DNA of 64,000 nucleotides from Arthrobacter crystallopoietes (GTDB taxonomy: Bacteria > Actinomycetota > Actinomycetes > Actinomycetales > Micrococcaceae), in assembly GCF_017603825.1 (NCBI RefSeq), contig NZ_CP072014.1, positions 4,092,001 through 4,156,000 of the forward strand, read 5' to 3'. Below the pieces are notes generated by a model. The model made no database searches, had not been told where the DNA came from, and was given only the letters and a program-made list of their open reading frames with translations. Each line of letters begins with the position of its first letter. Position 1 is the stretch's first letter. Positions 17,241-34,537 of the stretch are shown here, in pieces. A program made the position numbers and the translations under genes.

Positions 17241-17269
17241 ACTGTACTCCGCGCGCCGCTTTAAGTTAA
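17241..17269 (-). promoter_or_regulatory. Candidate infA operon promoter
   Basis: On the minus strand, TTAACT (17264-17269), a 17-bp spacer, and TACAGT (17241-17246). This matches a housekeeping-sigma promoter at 4 of 6 bases in each hexamer. It gives a 5' UTR of about 135 nt for infA. Its -35 end overlaps the last codons of the P1-peptidase gene. Confidence 0.5.
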
Positions 17270-18241
17270 ATCGGGATGCTTTGCAAGTACGACGGCGGGA
17301 GTTTCCACCGTCTCGGCACTCGCCACCGCGTCAAGGATGGCAAGGCGGACGGCTTCCGCCGCCAAAATCTGCAGTTCCAGGACCGGAGTCACCGGACCCT
17401 CCTGCACCAGTTGCTTCTCGCCGGTGGCCAAACCAAAGACCACGTCCCCGTCTCCGAGGGTATGGGAGGGGTTGAGCGCTCTTGCCAGTCCCGCATGGGA
17501 GGCCGAAGCAGTGCGCTTGACCTGTGCGGGATCCAGCACAGCGTTGGTGGCGATGACGCAAAGCGTCGTGTTCAGCGGGGCCTGGCTGGGTGGCGATGCC
17601 TGGGTGGGCAGCGGCGGCAGTGCGGGAGCTGATCTCGAGACCTGTTCGGTACCGAGGCCAACGGGGGCGCCGGCCGCGTTGACCACCGCGATAGCACCGA
17701 TGACCACATCGGAGTTGCCGCCACTCATCCGCAGCGAAGCGCTGCCCACTCCCCCTTTATAGCGCTGGTAGTCCAGTGCCGCTCCGGTGCCGGCACCCGC
17801 GTTGCCCCGCTGCACCGGCGCAAAGTACGGAGAGGCACCCGCTGCAGCGGCAGCGTCGTACCCCATCTGTTCGGTCGGGCGGGCCTTGGCATCGCCGCCG
17901 CGGCCGAGGTCGAAGATCGCTGCCGCGGGCACGATCGGGACTACGCCGGCGTCCGTCCGGAAGCCTCTGTCCTGCTCCTCGAGCCAGCGCTGCGCGCCGT
18001 GGGCGGTGATCAGCCCGAAGGCGCTGCCGCCGGTGAGGACCACTGCGTCCACTGTTGGGACCAGGGTGGTTGGATCGAGCGCGTCGGTTTCGTGGGTGGC
18101 GGGCCCTCCCCCGCCCACGTGCACGGAACCGATGGTTCCCGGCGGCGGCAGCACTACCGTGACGCCGGACAGCCAGCCCCCGCCGATCCGCTGGACCTGG
18201 CCGACCTTGATTCCGGGGACATCGGTGATGGAGGAAGTCAT
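17261..18241 (-). CDS. P1/DmpA-family (S58) N-terminal nucleophile aminopeptidase
   Basis: 326 aa. Family S58 hydrolases (L-aminopeptidase D-Ala-esterase type) cleave themselves to expose a Ser or Thr nucleophile. Family blocks seen here: N-terminal ITDVPGIKVGQ, the VLTGGSAFGL motif near residue 70, GNAGAGTGAALDYQRYKGGV near 150, and APLNTTLCVIATNAV near 225, where Thr225/226 is the likely nucleophile. The real substrate is unknown. It starts 9 nt after the APH-like gene and is the last member of a five-gene co-directional island between map and infA. Confidence 0.85.
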   Translation of the reverse strand: MTSSITDVPGIKVGQVQRIGGGWLSGVTVVLPPPGTIGSVHVGGGGPATHETDALDPTTLVPTVDAVVLTGGSAFGLITAHGAQRWLEEQDRGFRTDAGVVPIVPAAAIFDLGRGGDAKARPTEQMGYDAAAAAGASPYFAPVQRGNAGAGTGAALDYQRYKGGVGSASLRMSGGNSDVVIGAIAVVNAAGAPVGLGTEQVSRSAPALPPLPTQASPPSQAPLNTTLCVIATNAVLDPAQVKRTASASHAGLARALNPSHTLGDGDVVFGLATGEKQLVQEGPVTPVLELQILAAEAVRLAILDAVASAETVETPAVVLAKHPDLT

Positions 18242-18250
18242 GCCTTCACT

Positions 18251-19057
18251 CTAGAGGGCTGCCCTTATCAGACCGGAGTTGTCGCTGAGCCAGGCTTCGG
18301 CCCTCGGCACCCGGTCCTTCACGCCCTCGTTCCACCAGCGCCGGAAGACCGGGTCAGCGTCGGCGGCGGCTTTGGCGGTGAGTGACGCATTGCGGCCGCG
18401 CTGGATGGCGACATCAACCAACGTGCTTCTTTGCTCGGCGTTCATGCCGTAGGCGTCGGCGAACAACCGCACCCGTGCCGGGATGTCAGCTTCCGCCAAT
18501 GCCGGAGGCCGGTCTGCCGGGTGCAGGAGCGGCGCCCACCAGTAGAGCGCATTGACGACGTCGGCGACCCGGGTGGTTGGCCTGGCCAGGTCGAAATCGA
18601 TCAGCGCCGCCGGAACGCCGTTGCGGAAGACGACGTTGCCCGGGCAGTAGTCCTGATGGGAGACCAGTTCGGGCGTGGTGAACAGGGGCTTGACCTCTGG
18701 CGGACGGATGCCGGGTAGGCTGCCGAACACCGCATCCTCCGGCGGCACCCATCCCTGGGCGGCGTCGTGCATCCGGCGGATGAGCCGGGCCAGCGCGGTC
18801 AGTACCTCCGGGCCCGTTGCCTCTGCGGTCAGCGGTTCCACGGGGACATCGCCCGGGACATAGGAGAGGACTTCCCGTCCGGCGTCGTCGTAGCCAAGCG
18901 GGACCGGAGCGGCGTCGAAGCCCTGGGCGTGCAGGTGTGCGAGGTACTCCTGGACGGTTGCGGTGAACGGGCGGACCGGCCGGCGGACCGTGTCCCCGAT
19001 TCTGACCACCGTGGTCCAGCCGCCCTCGCCCAGCTGCTGCCCTCCGCCGTCGTTCAT
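18251..19057 (-). CDS. Aminoglycoside-phosphotransferase-family (APH) kinase-like protein
   Basis: 268 aa with the protein-kinase-like fold of APH enzymes. The Brenner motif HQDYCPGNV contains the catalytic Asp and metal-binding Asn, and LIDFDLARP is the second metal site. The N-terminal lobe includes VLSYVPGDVPVEPL. The family phosphorylates aminoglycosides, but also choline, homoserine, sugars and macrolides, so resistance should not be assumed. It sits 7 nt downstream of the putative membrane anti-sigma gene, in one apparent operon. Confidence 0.82.
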   Translation of the reverse strand: MNDGGGQQLGEGGWTTVVRIGDTVRRPVRPFTATVQEYLAHLHAQGFDAAPVPLGYDDAGREVLSYVPGDVPVEPLTAEATGPEVLTALARLIRRMHDAAQGWVPPEDAVFGSLPGIRPPEVKPLFTTPELVSHQDYCPGNVVFRNGVPAALIDFDLARPTTRVADVVNALYWWAPLLHPADRPPALAEADIPARVRLFADAYGMNAEQRSTLVDVAIQRGRNASLTAKAAADADPVFRRWWNEGVKDRVPRAEAWLSDNSGLIRAAL

Positions 19058-19064
19058 TGGATCC

Positions 19065-19661
19065 TCAGAGCTTGGTGACGTCGATGGTGCCGGGCTTCAT
19101 GTCGATGGCTTCGCAGAACTCCTGGACATTCGCGGGCAATCCGTCCGGCGTGGCGAAGACGGCGTAGCGCCAATCGTCCCGAACGCAGGTCACCATGGCC
19201 GGCGGTTCGCTTCCCGGTGCCGATTGGTCCCGTCCTTCCTCGGACCGGGCCTCCCCCGGCGCCGGTTCCTGCGGCGAAGACTGTCCCGGCTCCGGCAGCG
19301 GGGCCTCCCGCCACAGTGCCCCGCAGAGTTCCTGCGGGTCGATCCGCTGCGGCACCCCGGTCAGGTCCACCATGACGCTGCCGTCCGGATTGGTGCCGAC
19401 GATCTCGCCGCCGCTGGCAAAGCCCGCCTCCTGCTGCGGGGCATCGGGGGTGGAGCCCATGTAGCAGATGGCGGTGAAGCGCTTCTGGTCGTCGGTGAGG
19501 TTCAGAATGGCAAAGCCGGCGGTGGCGGAACCGGCCAGCACCGGCACGGCGACCGCAGCGGTGACCACCCGCCGTCGTCGTTTGTGGCGGGCGATGTCCC
19601 GCGTGATCCGAGCATTCAGCGCCGAGCGCACGCGCGCTTTACTGAGCTGGAGTTCGTCCAT
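19065..19661 (-). CDS. Single-pass membrane protein in anti-sigma position
   Basis: 198 aa. A 32-residue basic cytoplasmic N-terminus (ARITRDIARHKRRRR), one transmembrane helix (VVTAAVAVPVLAGSATAGFA), then an extracellular domain with four Cys and a Pro/Glu/Ser-rich linker (about 130-155). It starts 2 nt after the ECF sigma gene, where anti-sigma factors usually sit. It lacks the HxxxCxxC zinc anti-sigma motif, and its cytoplasmic part is short, so an anti-sigma or sensor role is only inferred. I recognise no named family. Confidence 0.6.
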   Translation of the reverse strand: MDELQLSKARVRSALNARITRDIARHKRRRRVVTAAVAVPVLAGSATAGFAILNLTDDQKRFTAICYMGSTPDAPQQEAGFASGGEIVGTNPDGSVMVDLTGVPQRIDPQELCGALWREAPLPEPGQSSPQEPAPGEARSEEGRDQSAPGSEPPAMVTCVRDDWRYAVFATPDGLPANVQEFCEAIDMKPGTIDVTKL

Positions 19662-19663
19662 TC

Positions 19664-20260
19664 CTATTCACCTTCTTCCGCTGTGAGCACGTCCGAAAAC
19701 TGGTTTTTCAGCCGGTTGCGCAGGCGCAGCACCCGGTTTTTGACGGCGGCCTTGGTCAGGCCGAGTTCCTTGGCAATGTCGCCGTGCGGGCGGCCGCCGA
19801 CGAAGTGGACCAGGAAGATCCGCTGGTCTGCTTCGGGCATGGCCGACACGGCGCGGTGGACCCGGTTGAGGGTGTCCTGCGCAATGACCTTCTCTTCGGT
19901 CGAGACCTCGGCAAGGACCCGACCGATGTCCATCCGGTCGATGTCCAGCATGTGCTGGTTGCCTTTTTTGCGCAGGTGGTTCGCCGCCAGGTATTTGGCT
20001 GTGGTGTAGAGCCAGGGGAAGACGGAGCCGTTGACGCACTTGATGCGCTTCGCCTTCTCCCACATGAGGAAGAAGGTTTCCTGGGCAAGCTCCTCCGCTG
20101 CCCCGACGTCGCCGGTGATCCTGCCCACGTACCGCAGCACACCGTCGGCATGGCGCTCGTAGAGCACGCCGAACGCGTCTTCGTCCCTGCGTCCGCAGCG
20201 CCGGAGCAGCACGGACTCATCCGGCGACCCGTCGGCCGCCGGCTCGTCATCGACTGCCAT
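19664..20260 (-). CDS. ECF-type RNA polymerase sigma factor
   Basis: 198 aa. Region 2 runs from about 28 to 100 (YERHADGVLRYVGRITGDVG, AAEELAQETFFLMWEKA, FPWLYTTAKYLAANHLRKK). Region 4 lies at about 130-185, with a helix-turn-helix (HGDIAKELGLTKAAVKNRVL). There is no region 3, as in ECF sigmas. The ATG at 20260 abuts the stop codon of the upstream I36-like gene with no gap, and the membrane protein follows after 2 nt. Its regulon is unknown; the secreted neighbour is an obvious candidate target. Confidence 0.9.
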   Translation of the reverse strand: MAVDDEPAADGSPDESVLLRRCGRRDEDAFGVLYERHADGVLRYVGRITGDVGAAEELAQETFFLMWEKAKRIKCVNGSVFPWLYTTAKYLAANHLRKKGNQHMLDIDRMDIGRVLAEVSTEEKVIAQDTLNRVHRAVSAMPEADQRIFLVHFVGGRPHGDIAKELGLTKAAVKNRVLRLRNRLKNQFSDVLTAEEGE

Positions 20261-20992
20261 CTAGCCGAAGAAACTGGCGGATGAAGCCTGGTCATTGAAA
20301 GCACCGATCCAGCTCGAGAACTGGTAGTCACCATAGGTAGCCCCTTCGCCGTCGCGGTCTTCGTGCAGCCGCACGCTGCAGCCGTTGTAGCCGCGGAAGG
20401 ACGTGACCTGGTCATTCCAGCCGACGTCGGCCAGATTGATGAAGGCCGAGCCGCCCGCGAAGCAGCCCCCGTAGTTCAGGATCCGGTACGAGTCCCCGGA
20501 GTACCCAGCGTTCGCGTACACAATTGCCGCCGTAACAAACGACGACGGCGGCGCCTCCTCGGTCACGGGCGCTTGAGCAGCTATTGGCCGCGTTGCCATC
20601 GCAGGCCCAGCTGTTGCCGGCGTTACTGCGGCCGGCTCGGCGGTTTGCTGCGTGGCCACGGCCGGCTCAGCCGCATGGGTGGCCACGGCCGGTTCAGCCA
20701 ACTGCGTGGTTGCGGTCTGCTCAACGGTGCCGGCCAGTTGGTCCACGCCCAGCTGCTCGAGTGCGGTGTCCAAGGCGGCTTCGGTTCCGTAGCATTCAGA
20801 CGCCGAGGTAACGGCGTTGAACCAGCAATGTTCCGCGCCGGTGGACTGCTTAGTCGAGGTCGTCTCCGAGGTTCCGGGGGGAGCTGGACTGGCCGCGGCG
20901 ACGGCCGGAACGGCCCCTATTCCGATCAGTCCTGCCGTGATCACTGCCGCGAAGACGGCATACTTGCGCTGTTTCAGTACTTGGCGGCCCAT
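20261..20992 (-). CDS. Secreted protein with peptidase-inhibitor I36 / beta-gamma-crystallin-like domain
   Basis: 243 aa. Signal peptide: KQRKYAVFAAVITAGLIGIG followed by AVPAVAA. The middle (about 110-165) is a degenerate repeat of the type AEPAVAT / AEPAAVT, likely a flexible wall-spanning linker. The C-terminal 80 residues (YANAGYSGDSYRILNYGGCF, SFRGYNGCSVRLHEDRDGEG) have the Greek-key pattern of the I36/crystallin group, with two Cys able to pair. Streptomyces I36 members inhibit metalloproteases, but this function is not shown here. It is the first gene of the sigma island. Confidence 0.75.
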   Translation of the reverse strand: MGRQVLKQRKYAVFAAVITAGLIGIGAVPAVAAASPAPPGTSETTSTKQSTGAEHCWFNAVTSASECYGTEAALDTALEQLGVDQLAGTVEQTATTQLAEPAVATHAAEPAVATQQTAEPAAVTPATAGPAMATRPIAAQAPVTEEAPPSSFVTAAIVYANAGYSGDSYRILNYGGCFAGGSAFINLADVGWNDQVTSFRGYNGCSVRLHEDRDGEGATYGDYQFSSWIGAFNDQASSASFFG

Positions 20993-21329
20993 GTTTCCAC
21001 CATATAAGAGCCCCTTCCCGGGCTCCTAAAGCCCTGTGGATTGGGAGGAAAAGTGTGGCCGGCCCACGGAGCGGTGAGCCGTTCGCTCCCACCGCCCCGC
21101 GGCCATACCCTCGATGACCACTCTCCACGCAATGCATCCTGACGGGCCGAAGCCGTTCGTTCCTCAGCCGGAATCAGGTCCCTTGCGGGCCATCTACTTA
21201 TCTAATGTGCCGGGGACGCAAAAGGTCTCGCCTGGGATGAAAGTTTTTTCATCCCGGGCGAGACCCGCCGAACGCAACGCTCCAAGACCAAGCCAAGAGC
21301 CGCCGTCGTTCGCTTGAAACTGAGGCCGG
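20993..21329. other. 337-bp gap between map and the sigma island
   Basis: No gene seen. It holds the map terminator (21224-21265). A short hairpin, GAGCCC-CTTCCC-GGGCTC, lies at 21008-21025 just upstream of the I36-like gene. A TTATAT hexamer (minus strand, 21002-21007) lies only 10 nt before that gene's ATG. I cannot identify a convincing ECF-type promoter by eye. Confidence 0.5.
21224..21265 (-). terminator. Terminator of the secY-adk-map unit
   Basis: A long stem on the minus strand, GGTCTCGCC(C/T)GGGATGAAA pairing with TTTCATCCC...GGCGAGACC, followed by TTTTGCG. It starts about 65 nt after the map stop codon. The A/T-flanked stem could work in both directions. Confidence 0.8.
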
Positions 21330-22157
21330 TCAGTCCAGCGGAACCGGGGTGACGCCCAGCGGCGCCAGCTTGGCAGCGCCGCCATCTTCGGCGGTGAGAA
21401 CCCAGATACCCTTGTCATGCACGGCAACCGTGTGTTCCCACTGGCACGAGCGCGAGCCGTCGGTGGTGACGACCGTCCAGTCATCGGCCAGGGTTTTGGT
21501 CTCGATGTCCCCGCGGACCAGCATGGGCTCGATGGCCAGGCACAGGCCAGGACGGATCTTCGGGCCGCGGTGGCTGGTGCGGTAGTTCAGCACGTCGGGC
21601 GCCTGATGCATGGCGGTGCCGATGCCGTGGCCCACGTAGTCCTCGAGGATGCCCAGCGGCTTGCCCTCGACGCTGCTGACGTAGTCATCGATGGCGTTGC
21701 CGATGTCGCCGACGCGCGAGCCGTTGGCCAGGGCTGCTATCCCACGCCACATGGCTTCCTCGGTCACATCGGAGAGCCGCTGGTCTTCGGGATCGGCCGT
21801 GCCCACAATGACGCCCCGCGCGGAGTCGCCATGCCAGCCGTCGATGCTGCAGCCGCCGTCAATGGAGAGGATGTCCCCGTCCTCGAGCACTTTGTTGCCG
21901 GGGATGCCGTGGACAACTTCCTCGTTTACCGAAACGCAGACGGTGGCAGGGAAACCGTGGTAGCCCTTGAAGTTGCTCTTGGCGCCGGCCTCATTGAGGA
22001 CGGCTTCGAAGGCTGCGTCCACATCACTGGTGGTGGCACCGACGACGGCGGCGGCCACCGCAGCATCGAGGGCGCGGCTGACCACCAGACCCGCTTTGCG
22101 CATTTTGCGGATCTGGTCTTTGGTCTTGTACTCGATGCTGGGCTGGCCGAATGCCAT
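21330..22157 (-). CDS. map: Type I methionine aminopeptidase
   Basis: 275-aa metalloprotease that removes the initiator Met. Metal-ligand regions: GDILSIDGGCSIDGWHGDSA (two Asp), GHGIGTAMHQAPDVLNY (His), CLAIEPMLVRG (Glu) and SCQWEHTVAVHDKGIWVLT (Glu). The ATG at 22157 (MAFGQPSIEYKTKDQIRKMR) is chosen; the longer frame adds 16 unrelated residues. It lies 100 nt after adk, the standard order, and is closed by a strong terminator. Confidence 0.97.
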   Translation of the reverse strand: MAFGQPSIEYKTKDQIRKMRKAGLVVSRALDAAVAAAVVGATTSDVDAAFEAVLNEAGAKSNFKGYHGFPATVCVSVNEEVVHGIPGNKVLEDGDILSIDGGCSIDGWHGDSARGVIVGTADPEDQRLSDVTEEAMWRGIAALANGSRVGDIGNAIDDYVSSVEGKPLGILEDYVGHGIGTAMHQAPDVLNYRTSHRGPKIRPGLCLAIEPMLVRGDIETKTLADDWTVVTTDGSRSCQWEHTVAVHDKGIWVLTAEDGGAAKLAPLGVTPVPLD

Positions 22158-34385: not shown

Positions 34386-34415
34386 GTTATATTTGGGCTT
34401 CTCCGCCTAGTGGAA
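34386..34415 (-). promoter_or_regulatory. Candidate S10 operon promoter
   Basis: Minus strand TTCCAC (34410-34415), an 18-bp spacer, and TATAAC (34386-34391), about 200 nt upstream of rpsJ. The -10 is good and the -35 is weak. Confidence 0.35.
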
Positions 34416-34537
34416 CCTGACCCTGGCCCCGGGCATTATCCCGGGCGGGACGCGGTTTCGCACGACGACATAAGGAAGCGCTTGAACAACTCATCTAGTG
34501 TGGCAGATATCGGCATGAAACGCCAATCTGCGCCGGG

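Follow-up and report, generated by a model that had tools for sequence, protein, structure and literature searches.

A secreted crystallin-like protein linked to an extracytoplasmic function sigma factor and a presumed anti-sigma factor in Arthrobacter crystallopoietes and other actinobacteria

CnrY, the anti-sigma factor of the CnrYXH system of Cupriavidus metallidurans, crosses the membrane once. It belongs to class II, the class in which two helices clasp the closed sigma factor and block RNA polymerase. CnrY embraces its sigma factor with two helices, and CnrX, on the outside, is the metal sensor (PMC4598750; this and the other papers named here are cited for particular passages). The locus described here lies in 64,000 nucleotides (nt) of the genome of Arthrobacter crystallopoietes (contig NZ_CP072014.1, positions 4,092,001 to 4,156,000), the whole of which we call the window. 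It consists of three adjoining genes on the minus strand, here called the trio, which encode a secreted beta-gamma-crystallin-like protein of 243 residues (20261-20992), an extracytoplasmic function (ECF) sigma factor of 198 residues with sigma2 and sigma4 regions (19664-20260), and a protein with one transmembrane (TM) segment, the presumed anti-sigma factor (19065-19661). The original prediction, made from the DNA sequence, had joined these genes to a kinase gene and a peptidase gene in a single five-gene envelope-signalling unit, an interpretation that our analysis supports in part.

Like CnrYXH, the trio combines an ECF sigma factor, a short-tailed membrane protein and an extracytoplasmic protein with a metal-binding fold, the fold being a prediction in our case (PMC4598750); in the window, however, the third protein is a secreted beta-gamma-crystallin, Ca2+ is the metal we presume for it and the membrane protein has four conserved cysteines in its ectodomain, and the two systems are likened by their logic, not by their sequences. 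SigK/RskA and other class I pairs likewise set an ECF sigma factor beside a one-TM protein, but the N-terminal tail of the window protein, at 34 residues, is far below the class I anti-sigma domain average of 101 residues (PMC7406223), and one survey treats proteins with cytosolic parts of fewer than 50 residues separately, as potential class II anti-sigma factors (PMC7406223). A true RskA sits in the same chromosomal slot in a relative of the same genus (G013).

What is known of microbial beta-gamma-crystallins concerns mostly their fold and their binding of Ca2+; for few of them has a function been established. Few members of the family from outside the lens have been studied (PMC3551895). 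With clostrillin, vibrillin and Inhibitor_I36 the window protein shares two predicted Greek-key halves and the N/D-N/D-X-X-S/T-S motif, together with a match to clostrillin at the profile level; it differs in that its gene adjoins an ECF sigma/one-TM pair and in that a Cys-Cys segment and an Ala/Pro/Thr linker precede the domain. Two further systems are more distant parallels. In Caulobacter a periplasmic Ca2+-binding protein, CaBP, is encoded beside the ECF sigma factor SigV and the two affect each other (PMC13171946), but CaBP is an EF-hand protein of a Gram-negative bacterium and is likened here by description only. In Streptomyces the secreted accessory protein HbpS acts in a membrane sensor pathway, which runs through a sensor kinase and a response regulator, SenS and SenR, rather than an ECF sigma factor (PMC4991794). 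Judging by titles and the openings of abstracts, we recognised, among the papers listed, no account of a crystallin linked to an ECF sigma factor and anti-sigma factor in actinobacteria.

The three proteins and their conservation

The sigma factor is identified by both Pfam (sigma-70 region 2, 4.6e-13; region 4_2, 1.2e-11) and NCBIfam, and the secreted protein and the membrane protein fall below every family cut-off in both collections. The evidence for the secreted protein comes from the open reading frame (ORF) itself, alignments and a profile match. It begins with a hydrophobic, signal peptide-like N-terminus, followed by a segment bounded by Cys56 and Cys67, an Ala/Pro/Thr linker that varies in length and, at the C-terminus, a predicted double Greek-key domain, each half of which has one motif, NDQVTS or NDQASS. 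Both fit N/D-N/D-X-X-S/T-S, the canonical Ca2+ motif of microbial beta-gamma-crystallins (PMC3551895), and the pattern is retained in all six aligned members from two genera; one of the sequences (L035) begins at an internal methionine in alignments A2 and A5. Against solved structures the crystallin profile matched clostrillin (E 7.4e-4), and we predict that the protein is a beta-gamma-crystallin that binds Ca2+ in the window lineage. The crystallin part of the earlier label "I36/crystallin-like" is thus probably right, and the I36 part does not extend to the window protein, for which Pfam returned no match at E<=1, Inhibitor_I36 (PF03995) included. Weak Inhibitor_I36 matches appear in three of the six aligned members (best E 0.011), and among five distant linked crystallins scanned, one passes the cut-off (G437, 23.0 against 21.1 bits) and another (G474) scores below it.

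The membrane protein has a single hydrophobic stretch, with the TM segment starting at about residue 35, and a cytosolic tail of 34 residues with a charge of +8. The tail contains no cysteine, the first being residue 66, so the zinc motif of class I, Hx3Cx2C, is absent, as had been claimed. Each of the 11 membrane proteins that were measured, drawn from five families, retains the four ectodomain cysteines, which in the window protein are residues 66, 113, 159 and 183 (seven of the proteins were aligned; alignment A1 excludes a frame-disrupted sequence, from G043, which was left unjoined), and none of the 11 has a cysteine before the TM segment. Their tails run from 33 to 53 residues, with start codons of the distant proteins chosen by hand, and only two exceed 50 (L037, 53; L058, 51). 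The RskA model gave no match to the protein in the Pfam and NCBIfam scans, a comparison of the membrane-protein profile with solved structures returned nothing usable, and the whole genome of the window strain contains one match to the protein (E<=0.001). A short cytosolic part, no zinc motif and an adjoining ECF sigma factor are the sequence features of CnrY-like, class II proteins, and the alignment and the sigma neighbours of distant homologues lead us to presume that this is a class II-like anti-sigma factor. It would probably hold the sigma factor, as originally proposed; the suggestion of a new anti-sigma type is weaker than claimed, since zinc-free, short-tailed class II proteins such as CnrY are already described (PMC7406223, PMC4598750).

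Within the genus, four of ten genomes carry the membrane protein, and the same four carry the sigma factor (E<=1e-20). In a second genus (g5) both genomes have the trio in the same place and order, before the peptidase, and the order crystallin, sigma factor, membrane protein is retained in all six trio genomes of the two genera. Compared with g5, the sigma factor is 46-51% identical (47-51% in the locus comparison), the membrane protein 42-45% and the crystallin 26-28%, or 33-36% when the full alignment is used. Among 295 genomes sampled from the family, six have the sigma factor (E<=1e-25) and nine are found by the crystallin profile (E<=0.001): those six, a poor match in G036, and G015 and G117, in both of which a membrane gene adjoins the crystallin. 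Apart from the trio, one genome of the genus (G007) encodes a second crystallin-type secreted protein (L053:1195-1845, +), with no sigma or membrane gene found adjoining it.

More distantly, a crystallin, an ECF sigma factor and a one-TM four-Cys protein adjoin in seven further genomes (G015, G117, G851, G726, G474, G437 and G535). Among these the crystallin of G015 is truncated, that of G851 lies in two frames and was left unjoined, and the G117 contig contains only the C-terminal end of the sigma factor. G851 has the gene order of the window, and in G437, G474, G535 and G726 the crystallin faces the pair; three arrangements occur in all, which indicates a linkage beyond mere co-transcription. 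The counts behind this come from searches of 394 genomes of the class, with neighbourhoods covered to about 1.5 kb on either side, so that absences are local, and with profiles that already contained members from G726 and G851. The membrane-protein profile matched 51 genomes, mostly over the tail and TM segment alone. Seven matches outside the window are long (at least 110 of 176 model positions: G525, G869, G726, G851, G840, G918 and G535); an ECF sigma factor adjoins six of them, the seventh (G869) having only sigma fragments, and a crystallin lies next door in three (G726, G851 and G535). The crystallin profile matched 30 genomes (E<=0.01), and the sigma/membrane pair adjoins five of 29 loci outside the window (second matches in four genomes being left out), or by a fairer count 4 of 28, omitting G851 as already part of the crystallin profile. 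The crystallin, sigma and membrane genes are thus a recurring unit that probably senses something extracellular. The truncated crystallin gene of G015 (L050:1743-2100, -) is preceded by an inverted repeat that by eye resembles the end of a mobile element.

Upstream region and candidate promoter motif

Alignment with g5 reveals a conserved block upstream of the crystallin gene (21191-21250, -), the presumed promoter of the trio. Within it the window has a candidate site, GAGACC-N12-GGCACATTA (21203-21229), followed by a conserved AAGTAGATGG, and g5 has GCAACC-N12-GCGACATTA at the aligned place. The presumed -35 element is overlapped by a terminator-type hairpin after map (21224-21265, -), recognised by its fold and sequence; the folding energy of 21215-21270 is -35.7 kcal/mol (z -7.6), and the strong hairpin and its run of T's agree with the map terminator claimed earlier. 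A simple promoter and terminator scan missed this hairpin and added nothing useful, and by eye no such hairpin is present at the aligned place in g5. Closer to the crystallin gene, a leader element common to g5, GAGCGAACGGCT (21077-21088, -), has one exact copy in the whole genome and lies in a foldable region (21040-21110, -; z -2.0), for which a known leader RNA family was considered and set aside, Rfam giving nothing near its gathering score.

In the distant genomes an ECF-type promoter motif of the form GGAAC-N14/15-GGACAT precedes both the sigma factor and the crystallin in G474, the crystallin in G437 and G535, and the sigma factor in G726; the G437 sigma factor has it upstream in a TGAAC form. 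We first derived the motif by eye from the upstream regions of ten genes and then scanned 13 genomes for its exact form. In G437, G474, G535, G726 and G015 the scan gave 21 matches genome-wide, nine of them at the loci (1, 3, 2, 2 and 1, respectively); in G474 every one of the three matches is at the locus. Five of the nine had served to define the motif, and among the 16 others four are at loci. These lie upstream of the sigma factor in G015, of a 38-residue membrane peptide in G474 and a membrane-type gene in G726, both divergent, and, at a distance of about 480 nt, of the sigma factor in G535. Over all 13 genomes the reversed pattern matched 12 times, against 80 for the forward one. With a matrix built from the distant sites, the g5 upstream sites rank second and fourth in loci of 14 and 13 kb. 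The sigma factor of the trio would presumably recognise this motif. The block itself is conserved between the two genera. The distant genomes thus tie the sigma factor well to the crystallin, whereas the window does so by position only.

Two further observations concern matches of this kind. A third copy of the motif in G474 and G437, divergent from the crystallin, precedes a hydrophobic peptide of 37-38 residues with GGEIGRA in common (L143:3493-3661, -; L144:3615-3781, +). The top matrix match in the window (34412-34438, +) lies about 280 nt before an ORF that we take to encode a GH1-type glycosidase.

Possible roles of the crystallin

These observations make it rather probable, in our judgement, that the three genes form an ECF switch with a class II-like anti-sigma factor and a small regulon that includes the secreted crystallin. 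The short N-terminal tail of the one-TM protein would hold the sigma factor at the membrane, as CnrY holds CnrH; the four-Cys ectodomain would receive a signal and the sigma factor would be freed; and the freed sigma factor would transcribe a very small regulon, its own crystallin-sigma-membrane operon. The crystallin, exported to the wall or beyond, might then do protective work or report back to the ectodomain in a Ca2+-dependent manner, and we favour the reading in which it is an effector with possible feedback. Sequestration of the sigma factor, recognition of the motif, Ca2+ binding and feedback are all things we infer from sequence. More tentatively, the genes may represent an undescribed actinobacterial module, wide but patchy in distribution, in which the secreted crystallin, as a Ca2+ binder in this lineage, would be both product and input of the ECF sigma factor, acting through a disulfide-bonded four-Cys ectodomain on a short-tailed anti-sigma factor, and in which the regulon would comprise a few genes, in some genomes with that for the membrane peptide of 37-38 residues among them.

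Several results weigh against such a switch. In eight of the 13 scanned genomes, the window's among them, 59 exact motif matches include none at the locus, the nearest being about 4 kb away (in G851), and by the matrix the aligned site of the window comes no higher than 156th within the 64 kb. The anti-sigma model NF052375 matches the membrane protein weakly, with an E of 0.0039 and 17.2 bits where the cut-off is 100. AlphaFold models of both proteins, each built from three near-identical input sequences, have mean confidences (pLDDT) of 39.3 for the membrane protein, too poor for use, and 35.5 for the crystallin, whose fold is unreadable from the model. Ca2+ motifs are degraded in several distant linked crystallins, and Ca2+ binding therefore cannot be assumed for the whole group. 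Within about 1.5 kb, 24 of the 29 crystallin-profile loci, some of them weak matches, lack the pair, and four genomes with the sigma/membrane pair (G525, G388, G840 and G918) have no crystallin that we could find; in G884, G977 and G1008 a crystallin match and a short, tail-type membrane match lie apart. In the sigma tree, which includes one fragmentary row (L071), the window and g5 sequences group together with support of 100/100, apart from the other linked sigma factors, those with a strong motif among them; a single clade for crystallin-linked sigma factors is unsupported. The crystallin label changes four times on this tree; shuffled labels average 5.2 changes, and 87 of 500 shuffles gave a count as low. 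The distribution may reflect one old association followed by losses, or repeated gain.

The alternative that survives best, and a quite possible one, is that the crystallin is an effector only, protecting the wall or inhibiting proteases, and has no part in signalling. The motif before the crystallin in the convergent loci of G437, G474 and G535 is what a regulon member would show, and the G437 homologue passes the Inhibitor_I36 cut-off; against this, the window protein has no I36 match, and tight linkage in three arrangements exceeds what a regulon member would need. It is less likely that the crystallin is the sensor, binding Ca2+ or a wall ligand outside and pressing on the ectodomain, as CnrX does for CnrY/CnrH. 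The precedent of CnrX (PMC4598750), the linkage of the three genes in several orders and the canonical Ca2+ motifs in all six aligned members of two genera argue for such a role, but several homologous pairs have no crystallin found beside them, the motifs are degraded in several distant crystallins, and no hydrophobic anchor is visible beyond the signal-like N-terminal stretch.

Neighbouring genes and the variable slot

Downstream of the trio the window has genes for an APH-type phosphotransferase (18251-19057, -; Pfam APH, 8.6e-15) and an S58, DmpA-type peptidase (17261-18241, -; Pfam Peptidase_S58, 1.8e-54). The five ORFs lie where the original prediction placed them, on the minus strand with gaps of 0, 2, 7 and 9 nt, and since the gaps are small and the strand is one, read-through into the kinase and peptidase is likely in the window genome. 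The expectation that map is followed directly by infA fails in this genus: the S58 peptidase stands between them in all ten genomes, six of which lack this sigma factor. The kinase is at the locus in all four trio genomes of the genus and in none of the six others, and no kinase homologue was found at the two g5 loci, where the trio precedes the peptidase. In the other three trio genomes of the genus (G001, G003 and G007) the kinase is present outside one unbroken gene line, as an MFS gene on the opposite strand and a MarR gene, both identified by Pfam in the G001 copies, part it from the membrane protein. The spacing there is 1855, 4119 and 1856 nt, respectively, against 7 nt in the window, in all 64 kb of which we found no MFS or MarR match. 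Comparison with these relatives places a junction at 19058-19067 (-), where the stop codon of the membrane protein is joined to the kinase leader at the microhomology GAGG, and the window most likely lost the MFS/MarR stretch by a deletion at this common GAGG; for the window's lineage a loss is the more economical explanation, because its nearest relative, whose sigma factor is 97% identical, and two more genomes retain the extra genes. G003 also has a protein of 699 residues between the kinase and the MarR/MFS genes (L026:4469-6568, +), with a weak Mrr_N match below cut-off; a nuclease or a defence function is possible.

The gap between map and the peptidase (17261-21330 in the window; L028-L034 in relatives) is a variable slot, which shrinks to about 50 nt in G005 and G009, is filled by other genes over about 5 kb in G008 and, in G013, pairs the RskA-type anti-sigma gene with a sortase-domain gene. 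It could be argued from this variety that the trio is chance cargo, one of several unrelated insertions, but trios of like gene kinds recur in other families and we consider this improbable. A conserved five-gene envelope-signalling operon, for which the narrow gaps on one strand and the restriction of the kinase to the four trio genomes of the genus would speak, is very improbable and as a conserved arrangement contradicted by the MFS/MarR interruption in all three relatives, with the clean junction in the window, the peptidase present without the sigma factor in six of ten genomes and the g5 loci devoid of the kinase pointing the same way. The five genes stand in line in none of the three other trio genomes of the genus and neither of the two of g5; the scattering that had been named as a refutation is thus found for the kinase and peptidase and not for the trio, and the envelope-signalling unit stands as far as the crystallin, sigma and one-TM genes are concerned. 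The kinase and peptidase are probably passengers in the window genome, outside the conserved module. The notion that the secreted protein binds the peptidase as a sensor also finds no support: the window protein is no match to the I36 family, and ahead of residue 60 the peptidase lacks any hydrophobic window that would point to its export. The idea of an I36 protein inhibiting this neighbouring peptidase was likewise rejected, as there is no family match and the peptidase is a fixed neighbour even without the trio.

If the more tentative reading is correct, with the crystallin as both product and input, a protein of the crystallin fold would stand inside a sigma-factor signalling loop. Some microbial crystallins would gain a testable function through their tie to one particular sigma factor and one membrane receptor, and the short-tailed, zinc-free membrane proteins would offer an actinobacterial family for the study of anti-sigma factors, with a candidate motif suited to reporter assays.

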